Both the position numbers and the translations under genes were made by a program. Positions 40,347 through 47,520 of a stretch of DNA of 64,000 nt are shown here, piece by piece (position 1 is the stretch's first letter; the number at the start of each line of letters is the position of its first letter). Below the pieces are notes generated by a model. The model did not search any database. It saw nothing but the letters and a program-made list of their open reading frames with translations, and had not been told where the DNA came from. Source of the stretch: Prorocentrum cordatum (lineage: Eukaryota; Sar; Dinophyceae; Prorocentrales; Prorocentraceae); NCBI GenBank assembly GCA_963575745.1, contig CAUYUJ010017800.1, positions 90,001 to 154,000 on the forward strand, written 5' to 3'.

Positions 40347-40419
40347 GTGGCACGTAATAGTAGCCGTAATAGTCGTAGTCGTAGCCGTAGTAGTCGTAGT
40401 AGTCGTAGTGCTAGTAGTC

Positions 40420-40508
<89 letters not shown>

Positions 40509-40668
40509 TGTAGTAGTAGTAGTCGTAGTAGTCGTAGTAGTAGTAGTAGTAGTAGNNNNNNNNNNNNNNNNNNNNNNNNNNNNNNNNNNNNNNNNNNNNN
40601 NNNNNNNNNNNNNNNNNNNNNNNNNNNNNNNNNNNNNNNNNNNNNNNNNNNNNNNAGTAGTGGTAGTC

Positions 40669-40733
<65 letters not shown>
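40347..40733. repeat. AGT array with assembly gap, outer left flank of the retroelement
   Basis: AGT with CGT and CCGT variants. It ends exactly where the 279-bp direct repeat begins. 100 N at 40556-40655. Confidence 0.95.
40556..40655. other. 100-N assembly gap
   Basis: Exactly 100 N inside the AGT array. Confidence 0.98.
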
Positions 40734-40734
<1 letters not shown>

Positions 40735-41010
40735 TGGTTACGGCGAAAGTGAAGCTGTATTTCTGTTTTCCTGCACTCCACTGCTGTCCAGCCCGTGGAC
40801 TCTGAGGGCCACGGACTTCCGCCTCGCGAGACGCCTATGAGCGCGGCCTGGGGCGACCGCGAGGGACAGGAAGATGCTTGAGCCCGAACGGGCTACGAAG
40901 GGAATGCCCCGCCAGATTTTGCTTCCCGTGGCACTGTGCAGGAATGCCCCGCCAGATTTCGCTTCCCGGTCCCCGGATTGTCTGCCCGTCTCCCTCAGGA
41001 ACTAGTAGTA
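40732..41010 (-). repeat. pseudo-LTR A (3' end of the element on the minus strand)
   Basis: 279 bp matching 45941-46219 with about six substitutions and no indel (constant offset 5209). It contains two units of about 40 bp, GGAATGCCCCGCCAGATTT at 40901 and 40941, and ends in ACTAGTAGTA, then unique element sequence. Confidence 0.93.
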
Positions 41011-41138
41011 CCCACACTGACAGCGCTGGGGAATGAGCGCAACAAGGGATCGAAACAGCTGAGACTATTCAGGCTGGCAGGCCTTCACAGGAGACTCAGA
41101 TGAATCAAAAACGAGATGCTGCGCACAGGATTCGGCAA

Positions 41139-41459
41139 CTAAGCACGGATGCGGGCGCGAATCATACTCCCAGCTTTCAACATCAGTGCCACGGTTCCCC
41201 ACTGAACGATCTGAGGACTGCTCCCACCAATAATAAGAGTCGAACTCGAGCCAAAAGGAGTTCCCGCGTGCGGTACTTTGATGCCTAGGCCTGTCGCAAG
41301 GCCTTGGGCTGCCCAAGCTGCGATATTTTGCTTCCAATCGATTGCATTAAAACCCATATAATGACCAATCTGGAAGCCCACGACAAAGCCCAAAAGAACA
41401 AAAAAGCCCATGATGATGACCATATTCAGGTCGACGTTGTAGATAGGGTTCGAGAACAA
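41139..41459 (-). CDS. retroelement ORF with a membrane segment, unknown
   Basis: This stretch is in the same frame as the RS-rich ORF upstream (42260-41535) and separated from it only by a TGA at 41532-41534. The sequence between the stop and this segment is acidic and open (PEEREEPDVPDP), so the two may be one protein read through the TGA or two ORFs. Residues from about 13 on, MVIIMGFFVLLGFVVGFQIG, form one clear hydrophobic helix with Gly spacing; the rest is small and Ala/Gly/Ser-rich. No family is recognised. A membrane protein would be unusual in a Penelope-like element, so capture of a host sequence is a possibility. The first in-frame ATG is at about 41423. Confidence 0.45.
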   Translation of the reverse strand: MFSNPIYNVDLNMVIIMGFFVLLGFVVGFQIGHYMGFNAIDWKQNIAAWAAQGLATGLGIKVPHAGTPFGSSSTLIIGGSSPQIVQWGTVALMLKAGSMIRARIRA

Positions 41460-41534
41460 CCAGGGGGAAGAGGATTCGCAAGAAGGTGGATCAGGAACAT
41501 CTGGCTCTTCTCTTTCTTCGGGGTCGGCGTTTCA

Positions 41535-42260
41535 GTCGGAGTCCCGAAGAATCTCGAATACCCTCTGGAGCCTCGCATCCCTGGCCCTGGGCGGGTGGTC
41601 ATCGGGGGCATAGTCCCTGAAGATCCTGTCGATGGTCTTTTTGAGATTGCGTGACTGCCCATCCTCTTTCGGCCAAATAGCTTTGGTGACTTTGACGAAC
41701 TCCTGGCACGTACCATCCTTAAGCTTGAACGTGTGGCCGAACTCTGCCAGGAGAAGGCGCCTCTTGGCAACGGAGAGGGCGTCGGTCTTCCCGTCGGTGT
41801 TGCCCTTGACTAGAGCGCTCTCAGGTTCGGGAGGTTCCTGAGGCGCCGGCTGTCCAGGAGGAGCGGGCGGGTGTGCTGCAATCAGACCCGCGGACATCCT
41901 GTGAACCTGGAGGTAGGCGTCGAACTCGGACTTCACGGCGTTGGTGATCGCGGCGCCTTGTTCTTTCGCAGCCGCTTCTTGCGCCTGCTTCTGGTGCTGG
42001 TCCATGATCTTCTTGTGCTCGGGGTCGTACTTGTAGAGGATGCGCTGCGCCTCGGAGACCTGGTTGCGAAGGCGGGACTCCGAGCTGCTTGAACGGCCAC
42101 GGCGAGAAGAGTGCCTGCGGGGTGAGCGGTCGCGATGATCACGACGGTCACCGCGGTTGTCGCCCCACCAGTTCTGGCCCCACTGCTTGCTGGACTGGTA
42201 GCCCGACCCTCGGTTGTGTGAGCTCGACGATCTGGGTTGCCAACTCTGGGGCTTGCCCAT
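41535..42260 (-). CDS. RS-rich nucleic-acid-binding-like ORF, unknown
   Basis: From ATG at 42260 (MGKPQSWQPRSSSS) about 242 residues run to a TGA at 41532-41534. Residues 1-65 are rich in Ser, Arg, Trp, Gly and Asp (GQNWWGDNRGDRRDHRDRSP, then RRGRSSSS), resembling RS or RG RNA-binding tails. About 68-120 is helical and charged (SEAQRILYKYDPEHKKIMDQ), about 120-150 is Pro-rich (PPAPPGQPAPQEPPEPES), and the C-terminal 80 residues look globular (FGHTFKLKDGTCQEFVKVTK). The frame is open upstream into the RT end. A gag-like or RNP-binding role is an inference. No zinc knuckle is present. Confidence 0.5.
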
Positions 42261-42332
42261 CGCTGCTCCCCCGCTGCGATGGACGTTGCGCAGTGACACT
42301 CGGTACCACACACGCAGGGACTTTCGAGCCAT

Positions 42333-42575
42333 ACGAGCAGCGGGAATGGTAGGCAATGAGTGAGCGAGAGCACGCAATACTGAGAATGGAAACCCAATCA
42401 AAAACAGCTCCAGCAAGAATTCTTGAATGTTAATGCACTCCATCGCAGGACACGTTTTAAGGCTATATGCTCTGGCTAGCTTGCCCAAGATAAGTGCCCG
42501 AAGTCTTCCAAACGGTACTGCCAGGGTCCCCGGCCAGGCAAAAGTAATAGGTTTCGGCCTATCATTCGGGGACGT
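42333..42575 (-). pseudogene. C-terminal (thumb-like) end of the RT in a shifted frame
   Basis: The RT frame stops at TGA (42559-42561). A second minus frame is open across that point and reads RPKPITFAWPGTLAVPFGRL and on to EFLLELFLIGFPFSVLRALA. Leu-rich helices with a GFP turn, about 100 residues after YVDD, are what the RT thumb of Penelope-like and related RTs looks like. I infer a one-base frameshift near 42562-42575. It could be programmed, but a mutation is simpler. Confidence 0.55.
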
Positions 42576-44517
42576 CGGGCTCCATAACTATGGACGGTTC
42601 GCATTCCTCGGAACCCAGGGACAGCTTGCTGCCACAAATACCCATGGTTAGATCCAGCCATTCCCAGACTTCCCAGTTTCCTTCATGCAGGATTTGGGGG
42701 GACTGGTAACACATGGACAGGTTCTCCGAGCACGCTGTTTTTATGATGGCGCCCTGGCATTTGGAACATACTCGACGTGATGAAGACAAAACATCATCGA
42801 CATATCGACGCCACGACAGTTGGGAATACAACGGGTGCCCCTGGAGGCCAAGTGAGCGCCCCAGATCACCTCCTAGTGCTAGAAGTCCTCGATCCTCCTC
42901 ATCGCCAAGATGCGCACCTACACACGCACTGGACATTGTTCCACCGATCGAGATTCCTGTAATACTGAAGATGAGCTCCCCACAACTCACAAGCGTTAGA
43001 GCAGCTGTCGCCGCGACTGCGCGGTGAAGCCATTCAAGGGACAGAGACCACCATCCACGACTATACGCCTGAGGATTATGAGATACCTGATAACTCTTCC
43101 CCCTCTTGACAAGAATATGCGAATGATGGTGGTGATGACGACGATAGCGTTCTTCAGTGCGGGCCCATGCGCCGGCTAATCCTGCACTGTTGCACGCTTC
43201 AAAGGCTTGATCAATATCAGCCGTCATGCAGTGGAGGCCCGCGGACATGGGCTCACGACAACACAGACAAGTCAGAAAACCATCATCACGAAATTGATGA
43301 GAAAGAGGGGGGCCGAGTTCTGCTTGAAGAGCTTCAAGGCATCCTGCAACCTGATCCATATCTGGAATTTCTCGAGATAGCGGTAAGGCGTTGACGACTC
43401 CCCGTGTACCTCGAGCAGCAACCTTCCACCCACGGGCATGGCAGATCGCACTCATGTCGATGACGCGTCTCCAGCATGAGTGGCCCACCTTAGTGCAGGT
43501 ACGCCGATGAGATTGCCAGCATTTAGACTTGACGAAGGCGAACAGCTTGGGCACGGTTGCGGGTCGTTTGAATTGTCGCGGCCAACGGCGAAGAAAACCC
43601 GGAAGACCGAGACAAGCTTTGGCATGCATCCAGAGAAATACGCCTTGAATAGTGAGATCAGGTCTGTAAACCCATTGAGGATCAAGTAGCAGTTCATGTA
43701 GGAGGTGTGACACAAGCTGCAAACCTGGCAAAGACCAGCCCCGGCCTTGGTGACGGTCATCTTGCATAAATCCATGCTTAAAAGAGTGACGTGTATGGCG
43801 TAATCGGCGAGCAACTTCTTGAAGGGGACGCTGTAGGTCTTGCCACTGCTCCGGAGCTTCTGAATGCGAATAAGTGGAGAACCATTTGCGAAGAAAGTCA
43901 TGACCACGTCGTCGGAGTCGAGGACGTAGTTGGAGTTGGCCAACCCAGGCATCCCAATTCTGCAGACTCTGCGAACGAAGCTCCCGCGATGTTGGCCATT
44001 GTCCCAGCTTCCATCGGCCGTCAATCGAAACAGTATCTGGGCACTGACAAGCTTGGCCAAGTATGTCGGGCTGAAGGTTCAAGATGACTTCTTTCTTGAC
44101 ACTTTGAATGATCTGCTTGCAGTTAAACTTCTCACACCATGGTGGAACCTTTTGCACAACAATTGAAAAATGATCGTGGAGCCATTTGCGCGCGGCTGGT
44201 GTACGAACGTCTGCGATGACGACTTTGGCAAGATGGCGCACCGTGCCCACGTGGCGGCACAAACCTCCAGGAACGCGAAGTGGAGGCACTGCTAGAGGAG
44301 GAAGGTGTCGAGACTGAAGTAGCCATGAGAGTGGGCGTCTCGCCGCAAACTGTGCTGATGAGCCTTTGACATGCTTCTTAAGTGAATCTGCGCACGAATA
44401 AAGCCAAGATGCACATTCTTCTCGCGTCCAAGTGCTCGGCAAACGAATCCAAGGCTTCTTGGAGGCAGCGTAGCCTAAGAAAATCGTCTGGTCGGTGAAG
44501 AGATAAATAGGGCCCAT
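42562..44517 (-). CDS. reverse transcriptase of Penelope-like element
   Basis: 651 residues. Residues 130-170 contain a CxC motif (Cys157, Cys159 in GQACQCPD), the hallmark of the linker between endonuclease and RT in N-terminal-endonuclease Penelope-like elements. RT motif A is TADIDQAFE (432-440, catalytic Asp434), motif B GISIGGTMSS (521-530), motif C RRYVDDVL (571-578, Asp574 and Asp575); a conserved-looking LDLTMGICGSKLSL (621-634) follows. The role is copying element RNA at a nicked chromosomal target. The ATG at 44517 is internal to a longer frame: upstream codons stay open to a TAA at 44617-44619, beyond which the same frame encodes the GIY-YIG domain. It ends early by a frameshift (see the thumb piece at 42333-42575). 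All catalytic residues are present. Confidence 0.85.
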   Translation of the reverse strand: MGPIYLFTDQTIFLGYAASKKPWIRLPSTWTREECASWLYSCADSLKKHVKGSSAQFAARRPLSWLLQSRHLPPLAVPPLRVPGGLCRHVGTVRHLAKVVIADVRTPAARKWLHDHFSIVVQKVPPWCEKFNCKQIIQSVKKEVILNLQPDILGQACQCPDTVSIDGRWKLGQWPTSRELRSQSLQNWDAWVGQLQLRPRLRRRGHDFLRKWFSTYSHSEAPEQWQDLQRPLQEVARRLRHTRHSFKHGFMQDDRHQGRGWSLPGLQLVSHLLHELLLDPQWVYRPDLTIQGVFLWMHAKACLGLPGFLRRWPRQFKRPATVPKLFAFVKSKCWQSHRRTCTKVGHSCWRRVIDMSAICHARGWKVAARGTRGVVNALPLSREIPDMDQVAGCLEALQAELGPPLSHQFRDDGFLTCLCCREPMSAGLHCMTADIDQAFEACNSAGLAGAWARTEERYRRHHHHHSHILVKRGKSYQVSHNPQAYSRGWWSLSLEWLHRAVAATAALTLVSCGELIFSITGISIGGTMSSACVGAHLGDEEDRGLLALGGDLGRSLGLQGHPLYSQLSWRRYVDDVLSSSRRVCSKCQGAIIKTACSENLSMCYQSPQILHEGNWEVWEWLDLTMGICGSKLSLGSEECEPSIVMEPDVPE

Positions 44518-44616
44518 AGAACCATCTACTGCTTGCCATTCCCTCTGGTAGATGCGATATAAACGGCCATATGGAGCCCGCGCACGAGGTACCTGTTGTG
44601 CATCCGGATGTGGATC

Positions 44617-45990
44617 TTAAAGAAATACACGCTTGTGAGCCGCTGCTGCAAAAATTGGCAGAGACCAAACTGACGTGGGGCCCTGGACTTCACGAAAGAG
44701 GCGAGGGGGCCGTCGACGCCGTCTGTTACCAAGAGGTTGCAAAGGGTCTTTCTGTGCGCCAACTGACTTGAGCGCGGAGCCACCGGCGATGTTAGACTCA
44801 GGACGCACGGCTTGAATGAGAAGGCCCTCTATCGCGTAGCACTGCCCCTCTGTGTCGCCGCTGACAATAGGAAGCATAAAGGTACTGCCAAGACTGCGAC
44901 GAAGAGGTTTGTATTTGAGTAACATTCCAGCAGGCGCATCTGGACGTAGAAGAGCTTGAACGTGTTCAAAATGCCGTTGAGGATAACCTGGTAGCGTTGC
45001 TGCTCGCTGCAACTTAGCTTTGCCAATATATTGAGCTGAGTGACATTGGAGCGAATAAACCACGGCGTTGGAGTTGTCCATCGGGCTGTTATCAATGACC
45101 CCCCTGGCGAATACTTCGTATCGAGAGCCAGGAACGTGGAGATCAGTTTTTGCCCAAGGCGGTGCAACTCTGAGAAACTGGCCAACCCAACGCTGGATGT
45201 GCTCGTGTCGCTGTAAACTCTGAGATAGCCTGCGCAACCCAAAAGCTGCCGATATGTGAGCCAAGAGACGATGGATAACATGATCTTTACGGCCAAACCG
45301 AAGGTGACGAGGAAGAGCTGCTTCGACGACATATGCATATGCCAATTGAGGACTTGCCAAGTCTGAGCTGTACTTTAACTCCCACATAGACGAAATGGTG
45401 GACGATATCGTACTTGCATTCGGGCATATCAGAGAACCAAGAAAGGGCTGAAGTCGCTTGCGCGCATGCTGATGGGCTTCTCCACTCTTGACAGGCCATT
45501 GAAATTGGTGCTGCCCATCAGGTGAAAAAACGCAACGCTCGAGGCGGTCGGCGACGATGAACTGGACTGGGATATTCCATGGCTGTGCACGGCGCGTCAG
45601 ACAGCCAGTCCCAACGCCTGAAGAGACAAACAGAGAATGAGACCCCAATCGCGCTGATGAGTACGGTGTACAGCTCGCAGTCAACAGAGAAGGTGAATCC
45701 CAAAATTGAAGCTTCAGAAAGTCCACGGTATAGCCACCCGCGCAGCACGTGGACACCGAAGAGAGAGATCCCAAAATTGACGGTATAGCCACACGCGCAG
45801 CACGTACACACCAGGGAAGATGAGGAAGAAGGCGTCCTGGTCGGACCAGTCGTCGAAACGCGTCGCACACAAAACAATATGAACGGGTGAATCTCAACGC
45901 CACCGTAGCAGTACAGCCGGTGTAGACGCTGAGGAACGACGTATGGTTACGGCGAAAGTGAAGCTGTATTTCTGTTTTCCTGCGCTCCAC
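44617..45990 (-). CDS. GIY-YIG endonuclease domain of Penelope-like element
   Basis: 457 codons open. The first codon (45990) is a GTG inside pseudo-LTR B; the first ATG is at 45387 (MWELKYSSD), about 108 residues before the domain, and is the likelier start. GIY-YIG signature by residue of the open frame: VVY (310-312), YIGK (321-324), Arg339 with His343, Glu388 in YAIEGLLIQAVRPESN, and Asn400. Only one Cys (316) lies between VVY and YIG, so the CCHH zinc signature of canonical Penelope endonucleases is absent, as reported for Chlamys. It should nick the target to prime reverse transcription. The frame ends at TAA 44617-44619, then continues open into the RT; 45990 and 44517 differ by 491 whole codons. 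Placement before RT defines the permuted class. Confidence 0.82.
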   Translation of the reverse strand: MERRKTEIQLHFRRNHTSFLSVYTGCTATVALRFTRSYCFVCDAFRRLVRPGRLLPHLPWCVRAARVAIPSILGSLSSVSTCCAGGYTVDFLKLQFWDSPSLLTASCTPYSSARLGSHSLFVSSGVGTGCLTRRAQPWNIPVQFIVADRLERCVFSPDGQHQFQWPVKSGEAHQHARKRLQPFLGSLICPNASTISSTISSMWELKYSSDLASPQLAYAYVVEAALPRHLRFGRKDHVIHRLLAHISAAFGLRRLSQSLQRHEHIQRWVGQFLRVAPPWAKTDLHVPGSRYEVFARGVIDNSPMDNSNAVVYSLQCHSAQYIGKAKLQRAATLPGYPQRHFEHVQALLRPDAPAGMLLKYKPLRRSLGSTFMLPIVSGDTEGQCYAIEGLLIQAVRPESNIAGGSALKSVGAQKDPLQPLGNRRRRRPPRLFREVQGPTSVWSLPIFAAAAHKRVFL

Positions 45991-46210
45991 TGCTGTCCAG
46001 CCCGTGGACTCTGACGGCCGCGGACTTCCGCCTCGCGAGACGCCTGTGAGCGCGGCCTGGGGCGACCGCGAGGGACAGGAAGATGCTTGAGCCCCAACGG
46101 GCTACGAAAGGAATGCCCCGCCAGATTTTGCTTCCCGTGGCACTGTGCAGGAATGCCCCGCCAGATTTCGCTTCCCGGTCCCCGGATTGTCTGCCCGTCT
46201 CCCTCAGGAA

Positions 46211-46219
<9 letters not shown>
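45941..46219 (-). repeat. pseudo-LTR B (5' end of the element on the minus strand)
   Basis: 279-bp partner of 40732-41010. On its outer side it runs directly into AGT repeats. In Penelope-like elements such repeats arise from tandem, partly truncated insertions rather than from retroviral LTR synthesis. Confidence 0.93.
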
Positions 46220-46949
<730 letters not shown>

Positions 46950-47305: not shown

Positions 47306-47329
47306 GTCTTCATGTTCACAGAAGTCTCA

Positions 47330-47520
47330 AGCCATATCGTCATTTTGCGAAGGAGACGTCCTCCACCCTTGTAACTGCTGCAAGATTTTACGACGATTGT
47401 TCGCGGCGCTCAGGGGAAAACCACACTTTGAAAAGGAGGCGTCCTCCATCCTTGTAACTCTTGCAAGCTTTTGTGACGAATGTGCGCGGCGCTGAGGTGA
47501 GAGCTTGATTTTGACAACCA
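47330..47520 (-). repeat. 82-bp satellite, minus orientation
   Basis: Two diverged units; reverse-complemented they read GTGGTTTTCCCCTGAGCGCC, CGTCGTAAAATCTTGCA and AGAGTTACAAGGATGGAGG, aligning to the units at 15150-15600. Confidence 0.8.

Follow-up and report, generated by a model that had tools for sequence, protein, structure and literature searches.

A minus-strand retroelement occupies positions 40732-46219 of the window, by which we mean the whole 64,000-nucleotide stretch analysed (G000:C16951:90001-154000, within the 4.13-Gb assembly G000 of 21,875 contigs). It belongs to a real, old dinoflagellate lineage of several subfamilies that is like the Penelope-like elements (PLEs), with the endonuclease in front of the reverse transcriptase (RT) and without a conserved CxC linker. 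We consider it quite probable that this lineage is a PLE family of dinoflagellates combining a GIY-YIG endonuclease with a downstream telomerase-type RT, whose members would insert by target-primed reverse transcription and produce a membrane form of their protein by stop readthrough.

A first-pass annotation, made from the letters of the window, had noted a retroelement between 279-bp direct repeats and AGT flanks, with two open reading frames (ORFs). The element and its repeats (98% identical) were seen again, as were the VVY/YIG/Arg/Glu/Asn endonuclease signature, which reads VVY-x8-YIG ... R ... EH ... E ... N in the minus-strand ORF 45990-44617, and the RT motifs TADIDQAFE, GISIGGTMSS and YVDD in the minus-strand ORF 44517-42562. 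Both ORFs are present, but the two-ORF description had left out a C-terminal domain (42488-41535) and an extension beyond the main stop codon (41531-41142). The ORF 42488-41535 matches the polyprotein C-terminus of relatives, and its start matches the related protein P0001 within residues 498-607. The window element is a broken copy: because they share a frame, are separated by an in-frame TAG and correspond to a single ORF in relatives, 45990-44617 and 44517-42562 are remnants of one polyprotein. The features are listed below in the direction of the element (LTR, long terminal repeat).

46220-46943, no strand: upstream flank, AGT-rich microsatellite with short interruptions
40732-46219, minus strand: whole element, a decayed copy set in (AGT)n/(TAC)n microsatellite, recognized by terminal direct repeats and microsatellite flanks
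45941-46219, minus strand: 5' pseudo-LTR, 279 bp, 98% identical to 40732-41010
44617-45990, minus strand: N-terminal ORF, helical region and GIY-YIG endonuclease (from the ORF and an AlphaFold model)
44776-45078, minus strand: GIY-YIG endonuclease domain (about residues 305-405 of the ORF)
44617-44619, minus strand: in-frame TAG separating endonuclease from RT in the window copy
42562-44517, minus strand: linker and RT ORF
43474-43530, minus strand: putative RT zinc site, KSKC-x7-C-x4-H-x-C (relatives have 7 or 8 residues in the first spacing)
43198-43224, minus strand: RT motif A, TADIDQAFE
42928-42957, minus strand: RT motif B, GISIGGTMSS
42793-42804, minus strand: RT motif C, YVDD
41535-42488, minus strand: C-terminal polyprotein part with a Ser/Arg-rich stretch and the conserved C-terminal domain; in the window copy its frame differs from that of the RT
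41532-41534, minus strand: main TGA stop, at a conserved position
41142-41531, minus strand: 130-codon in-frame post-stop extension with a single hydrophobic segment and a basic C-terminus
40732-41010, minus strand: 3' pseudo-LTR, 279 bp, with the inner start TACTACTAG matching the target repeat
40353-40731, no strand: downstream flank, AGT-rich microsatellite containing an N gap (40556-40655)

A dinoflagellate family of elements

The dinoflagellate spliced leader (SL) CCGTAGCCATTTTGGCTCAAG, as given in PMC12014239, has 14,218 exact occurrences in the assembly and its reversed control none; the host is therefore a dinoflagellate, as had been supposed from the window. The RT ORF matched at least 71 stretches of the assembly, a lower bound in which some stretches are several pieces of one copy. 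Near copies were 64-94% identical and many others 29-44%. For comparison of the family, 20 loci of 9-10 kb were fetched. Direct repeats spanning the element were present in the window and in 13 of the 20 loci, two of which (L028 and L029) are apparently identical. Matches, repeats and junction sequences of this pair (contigs C1707 and C20140) agree as far as printed; they are possibly haplotigs or a duplication, and copy counts may therefore include duplicate pairs.

In seven loci (L030, L032, L033, L035, L036, L037 and L039) a single ORF longer than 1,200 codons matches all three parts of the window element, and the 1,208-codon ORF of L040 matches the C-terminal part at its start only. The polyprotein of the relatives is about 1,330 amino acids long and consists of a helical domain, GIY-YIG endonuclease, linker, RT and C-terminal domain; the endonuclease motifs, RT motifs and C-terminal domain were common to 10 aligned polyproteins. 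A profile of the linker, RT and C-terminal part retrieved four further full-length proteins (1,234-1,324 amino acids), including P0006, which comes from an assembled transcript of a eukaryote. When 18 RT cores were placed in a tree, rows from G000 interleaved with rows from other records, which indicates that the family is old; the window row had no firm placement. No relative was found in IMG/VR, GTDB contigs or plasmids at the sensitivity of those searches, and a prokaryotic or viral origin was rejected on this ground. The element was judged not to be a chance assembly because of the 71 RT matches, the near-invariant endonuclease residues and the I-TevI match of the model described below.

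Endonuclease and linker

The best structural match of the AlphaFold model of the window endonuclease ORF was I-TevI, and the signature residues varied little or not at all across 11 aligned rows. None of the Cys residues was invariant or near-invariant among the 11 aligned domains, their positions being variable, as for Chlamys, in which loss of the CCHH Cys pair is reported. Pfam scans of family proteins detected neither the RT nor the endonuclease, the best GIY-YIG row being weak (E 0.2), and so did not give the GIY-YIG profile match whose absence the first-pass annotation had named as refuting its reading. None of the 74 rows of a whole-genome PF01541 search was on a contig with an RT match of the family (compared by eye).

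The GIY-YIG identity of the predicted domain rests on the structure match and on the locus L052 (G000:C1259:189950-192500) as a bridge to PF01541. L052, from the same genome, encodes an N-terminal GIY-YIG plus RT protein with the CxC linker WPCACHLHP and the RT motifs SDITNCFSNIP, AMGSSLAG and YMDD (read by eye). The family endonuclease aligns to that of L052 at 35-40% identity; for L033 the value was 36% over 100 residues. Further PF01541 matches lie in ORFs of at least 1,000 codons, for example on C14963, C17078, C2800, C16720 and C2987.

The CxC motif that had been noted in the linker is indeed present in the window copy (GQACQCPD), but it is not conserved: a CxC anywhere in the linker was found in one of 14 relatives and was missing in the other 13. 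L052 looks more like a typical PLE with an N-terminal endonuclease than the family does.

Reverse transcriptase

The RT model (REVERSE TRANSCRIPTASE) was an AlphaFold prediction of P0001 from eight sequences. The best of five models had a mean predicted local distance difference test score (pLDDT) of 65.6, the others 48-52. All 14 Foldseek matches at E<=0.001 were telomerases, at low TM-scores (0.19-0.33) and large root mean square deviations (9.6-22), the model being long and multi-domain with disordered parts. In the VIA comparison the top 14 rows were telomerase, and R2, group II intron and retroviral RTs ranked lower. To judge by the predicted fold, the RT is thus related to telomerase RT. 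With I-TevI as the best match of the endonuclease and telomerase as that of the RT, the element is probably a Penelope-like element whose endonuclease precedes the RT. Together with the pseudo-LTR-like repeats and the insertion in microsatellites, these matches uphold the first-pass reading of a Penelope-like element with GIY-YIG upstream of RT.

In the family, motifs A and B read DxDQAFEAC and IGGxMSSA. As regards the insertion-in-fingers domain of Chlamys/Naiad RTs, the two motifs are 88-91 residues apart in 14 of 14 sequences, and the model has a helix and strands between them. The Cys, Cys and His of the KSKC site were present in 8 of 8 rows and its last Cys in seven; in all, eight Cys/His positions of the RT were identical in the eight rows, which suggests that these sites may bind zinc.

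One alternative is a chimera, formed when a separate telomerase-like RT lineage acquired the GIY-YIG domain of a Chlamys-like PLE; the element would then be PLE-like in its working and not by descent. Its endonuclease aligns to that of L052 at the identity given above, whereas a profile comparison of the family RT with the L052 RT gave no alignment, and the RT has motifs and conserved Cys pairs of its own. However, L052 entered this comparison as a single sequence, without an alignment, the RT may have diverged at a higher rate than the endonuclease, and telomerase as the best structural match is what is expected of a PLE. On balance, a chimeric origin appears unlikely.

Relation to known elements

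PLEs with an N-terminal endonuclease (Chlamys/Naiad) are defined by GIY-YIG upstream of RT and a CxC linker motif, and the hosts of Chlamys include green algae, spike mosses and slime moulds. To our knowledge, the Chlamys endonuclease has no CCHH motif, and PLEs of this type carry no hammerhead ribozyme. No Rfam hammerhead was detected at E<=1 in six of 40 loci, a scan that did not include the window itself. Compared with the Chlamys definition, the family is alike in the order GIY-YIG then RT, in its pseudo-LTRs, in its bias for microsatellites and in having no conserved endonuclease Cys pair; it is unlike Chlamys in the linker without conserved CxC, in the RT motifs and in the dinoflagellate host. 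The conserved RT Cys/His sites are another difference, and the C-terminal domain and the in-frame post-stop extension may be further ones. The first-pass annotation had assigned the element to the Chlamys/Naiad group. This assignment was not supported: membership by the CxC motif was rejected, and membership in general is not shown, because most relatives have no CxC, the RT motifs differ and the same genome encodes the distinct CxC-bearing protein of L052. The latter shares the N-terminal GIY-YIG with the family and differs from it in linker and RT motifs.

Canonical Penelope/Poseidon PLEs have a telomerase-like RT, a C-terminal GIY-YIG domain, pseudo-LTRs and a hammerhead ribozyme, and their reverse transcription begins at a site without target homology (PMC11167929). 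The family resembles them in RT, GIY-YIG and pseudo-LTRs, and differs in its N-terminal endonuclease, in the target homology at the element ends of four of seven subfamilies and in the lack of a hammerhead match in the six loci scanned. Telomerase RT is the closest solved fold, and the aligned ranges begin upstream of the RT core, possibly in the RNA-binding domain; unlike telomerase, the family is mobile, encodes an endonuclease, has terminal repeats and exists in many copies. Chlamys PLEs have been described in Ectocarpus, and this 2025 paper (PMC12477816) states that PLEs were previously unreported in TSAR (telonemids, stramenopiles, alveolates and Rhizaria). As far as that statement and our literature searches reach, an alveolate host of PLEs would be new; among the papers listed in one of these searches, a single one mentioned "Penelope-like", and it concerned foraminiferan mitochondria.

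Extension beyond the main stop codon

In the first set of loci, all 16 copies whose polyprotein ends at a stop codon use TGA; in L039 a sense codon takes this place and the frame stays open. A second set (14 loci, three without match) yielded more copies of known subfamilies and three more subfamilies, two with TGA and one with TAA, all with an in-frame extension. In L051, L010 and L016 no C-terminal match was found. One copy was then chosen per subfamily (n=10), an unbroken extension being preferred (for example, L034 over L037 and L050, and L042 over L039). In these representatives the stop (nine TGA, one TAA) is followed by 109-146 open in-frame codons. Broken extensions were those of L025 (81 codons), L026 (34), L037 (84) and L050 (58); those of L022 and L033 run into N, and L044 has an earlier TAA. 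The other two frames had a median of 24 open codons, and one of the 20 stretches (L035) reached 160. At the composition of the extension, the chance of 109 open codons is 0.018 each.

A hydrophobic segment (19-residue hydropathy of at least 1.9) is present in nine of the ten extensions, and a basic stretch at the end in eight (by eye). When the residues were shuffled 1,000 times, the hydropathy of eight representatives was reached in no more than 54 shuffles each; L045 (156 of 1,000) and L040 (176 of 1,000) are not exceptional by this measure, and L034 has a higher value in another frame than in the extension frame. The ratio of nonsynonymous to synonymous substitution rates (dN/dS) among the extensions of L028, L030 and L032 was 0.32-0.43 in the extension frame, compared with 0.93-1.24 out of frame. 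One of the four subfamilies tested thus shows purifying selection on the extension. For L034/L037 the ratio was 0.64, no different from the other frames (0.56 and 0.60), and L038/L040 were too alike to give a signal. The extensions of window/L021 (2.0; other frames 0.20 and 0.75) and window/L025 (0.87) were without constraint, as was the main ORF of window/L021 (1.8). P0001, P0003, P0005 and P0006, compared as protein only, likewise end near the main-stop position (by eye).

The best reading of the extension, from its sequence, is programmed readthrough that would add a membrane anchor. Selenocysteine at the TGA was rejected because one subfamily has TAA and no row of a selenocysteine insertion sequence (SECIS) family was obtained at E<=1 in six loci. 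The stretch might instead be a separate small ORF, translated by reinitiation or from an SL trans-spliced mRNA and giving no readthrough tail. It sits downstream of a stop kept in nearly all copies, and PMC12014239 describes trans-splicing of the leader onto dinoflagellate nuclear mRNAs. An ATG precedes the most hydrophobic segment in three of the ten representatives (L040, L041 and L045) and, within the L028 subfamily, in L030, L032, L048, L049 and L019 but not in L028 itself. Against this, the extension shares the main ORF's frame in all ten representatives, which a separate ORF need not be; seven have no ATG ahead of the segment, L034 and L035 lacking ATG altogether; and L039 continues straight through. 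A separate ORF is therefore improbable, and readthrough is preferred.

Target sites and element ends

High periodicity was found in 20 of the 26 flanks of 13 copies, compared with 12.8% of control 60-mers, all drawn from the window; L029, whose junctions have the same sequence as in L028, was not counted. The subfamilies target different microsatellites, and in four of seven the element ends contain 6-8 nt of the target repeat: the inner start of the pseudo-LTR is TACTACTA, CATCATC, ACACAC and TCATCAT in subfamilies targeting TAC, CAT, AC and CAT, respectively. These starts follow TCCC(C)AG-N-GGG. The inner junction of L045 is arranged likewise, with ACACAC (from the element end alone, its flanks not having been fetched). 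Three further subfamilies (L036, L038/L040 and L039) have an inner junction without a target-repeat start. The repeat types follow the RT tree, in which CAT, AC and GGA elements form one group each, with support of 83/81 for CAT and 100/99 for the others. The labels of L038 (GGA) and L033 (AC) were borrowed from near copies, L038 itself not being in a microsatellite and the flanks of L033 not having been measured; L034 and L031 were outside this tree.

The 3' boundary is identical in three TAC insertions (window, L021 and L025), CCATAC being followed by TAC-type repeats. This common boundary and the target-like ends point to a fixed initiation site beside a short target-matching stretch. A link between CCGTAACCAT at the pseudo-LTR end and the dinoflagellate SL was rejected since other subfamilies do not have CCGTAACCAT.

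An LTR, DIRS or long interspersed nuclear element (LINE) retrotransposon, with the element-spanning direct repeats of the window and the 13 loci as true LTRs, is highly improbable and was rejected: the RT model matches telomerase ahead of LINE, group II and retroviral RTs, a GIY-YIG endonuclease is present, microsatellites are targeted with target homology at the junctions, and the Pfam-scanned proteins gave no integrase, protease, recombinase or RNase H (the same scans missed the RT too).

Proposed mechanism and significance

In the mechanism that we propose, the endonuclease would nick a microsatellite, and the freed 3' end would base-pair with matching repeat units at the 3' terminus of the pseudo-LTR carried by the element RNA. 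From there the RT would copy this RNA toward its 5' end, where the 6-8 nt of target repeat may assist joining of the other side. Occasional ribosomes would read through the main stop and add a tail of about 110-145 amino acids with one transmembrane helix; a minor, membrane-anchored form of the protein, suggested by the conservation of the extension, would result. With about even chances, the family may be an ancient telomerase-related one in which readthrough yields a soluble endonuclease-RT and a minor form whose transmembrane tail possibly tethers the ribonucleoprotein to a membrane, for example the nuclear envelope, and in which the end repeat units serve each subfamily as an "address label" of its target.

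The family would extend PLEs to dinoflagellates, as a lineage whose RT motifs and linker are distinct. Since the related elements have four target repeats (TAC, CAT, AC and GGA), with matching end repeat units for three, target choice and priming of PLEs become directly testable. A conserved readthrough membrane-anchor tail on a retrotransposon polymerase would be unusual. The enzymes behind the many retrocopied, SL-tagged genes of dinoflagellates are not settled according to PMC12014239, and the family is a candidate source of them.

Other repeats

A pseudo-LTR unit of about 40 nt is repeated at 40901-40968 and 46110-46177, inside both pseudo-LTRs; beyond the contigs that carry close element copies, there are 41 related matches to it. 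Immediately beyond the upstream microsatellite, at 47326-47491, there are two tandem 83-bp units, 77% alike. Within the N-terminal coding part of the element, a 40-nt direct repeat, 85% alike, is located at 45718-45812.
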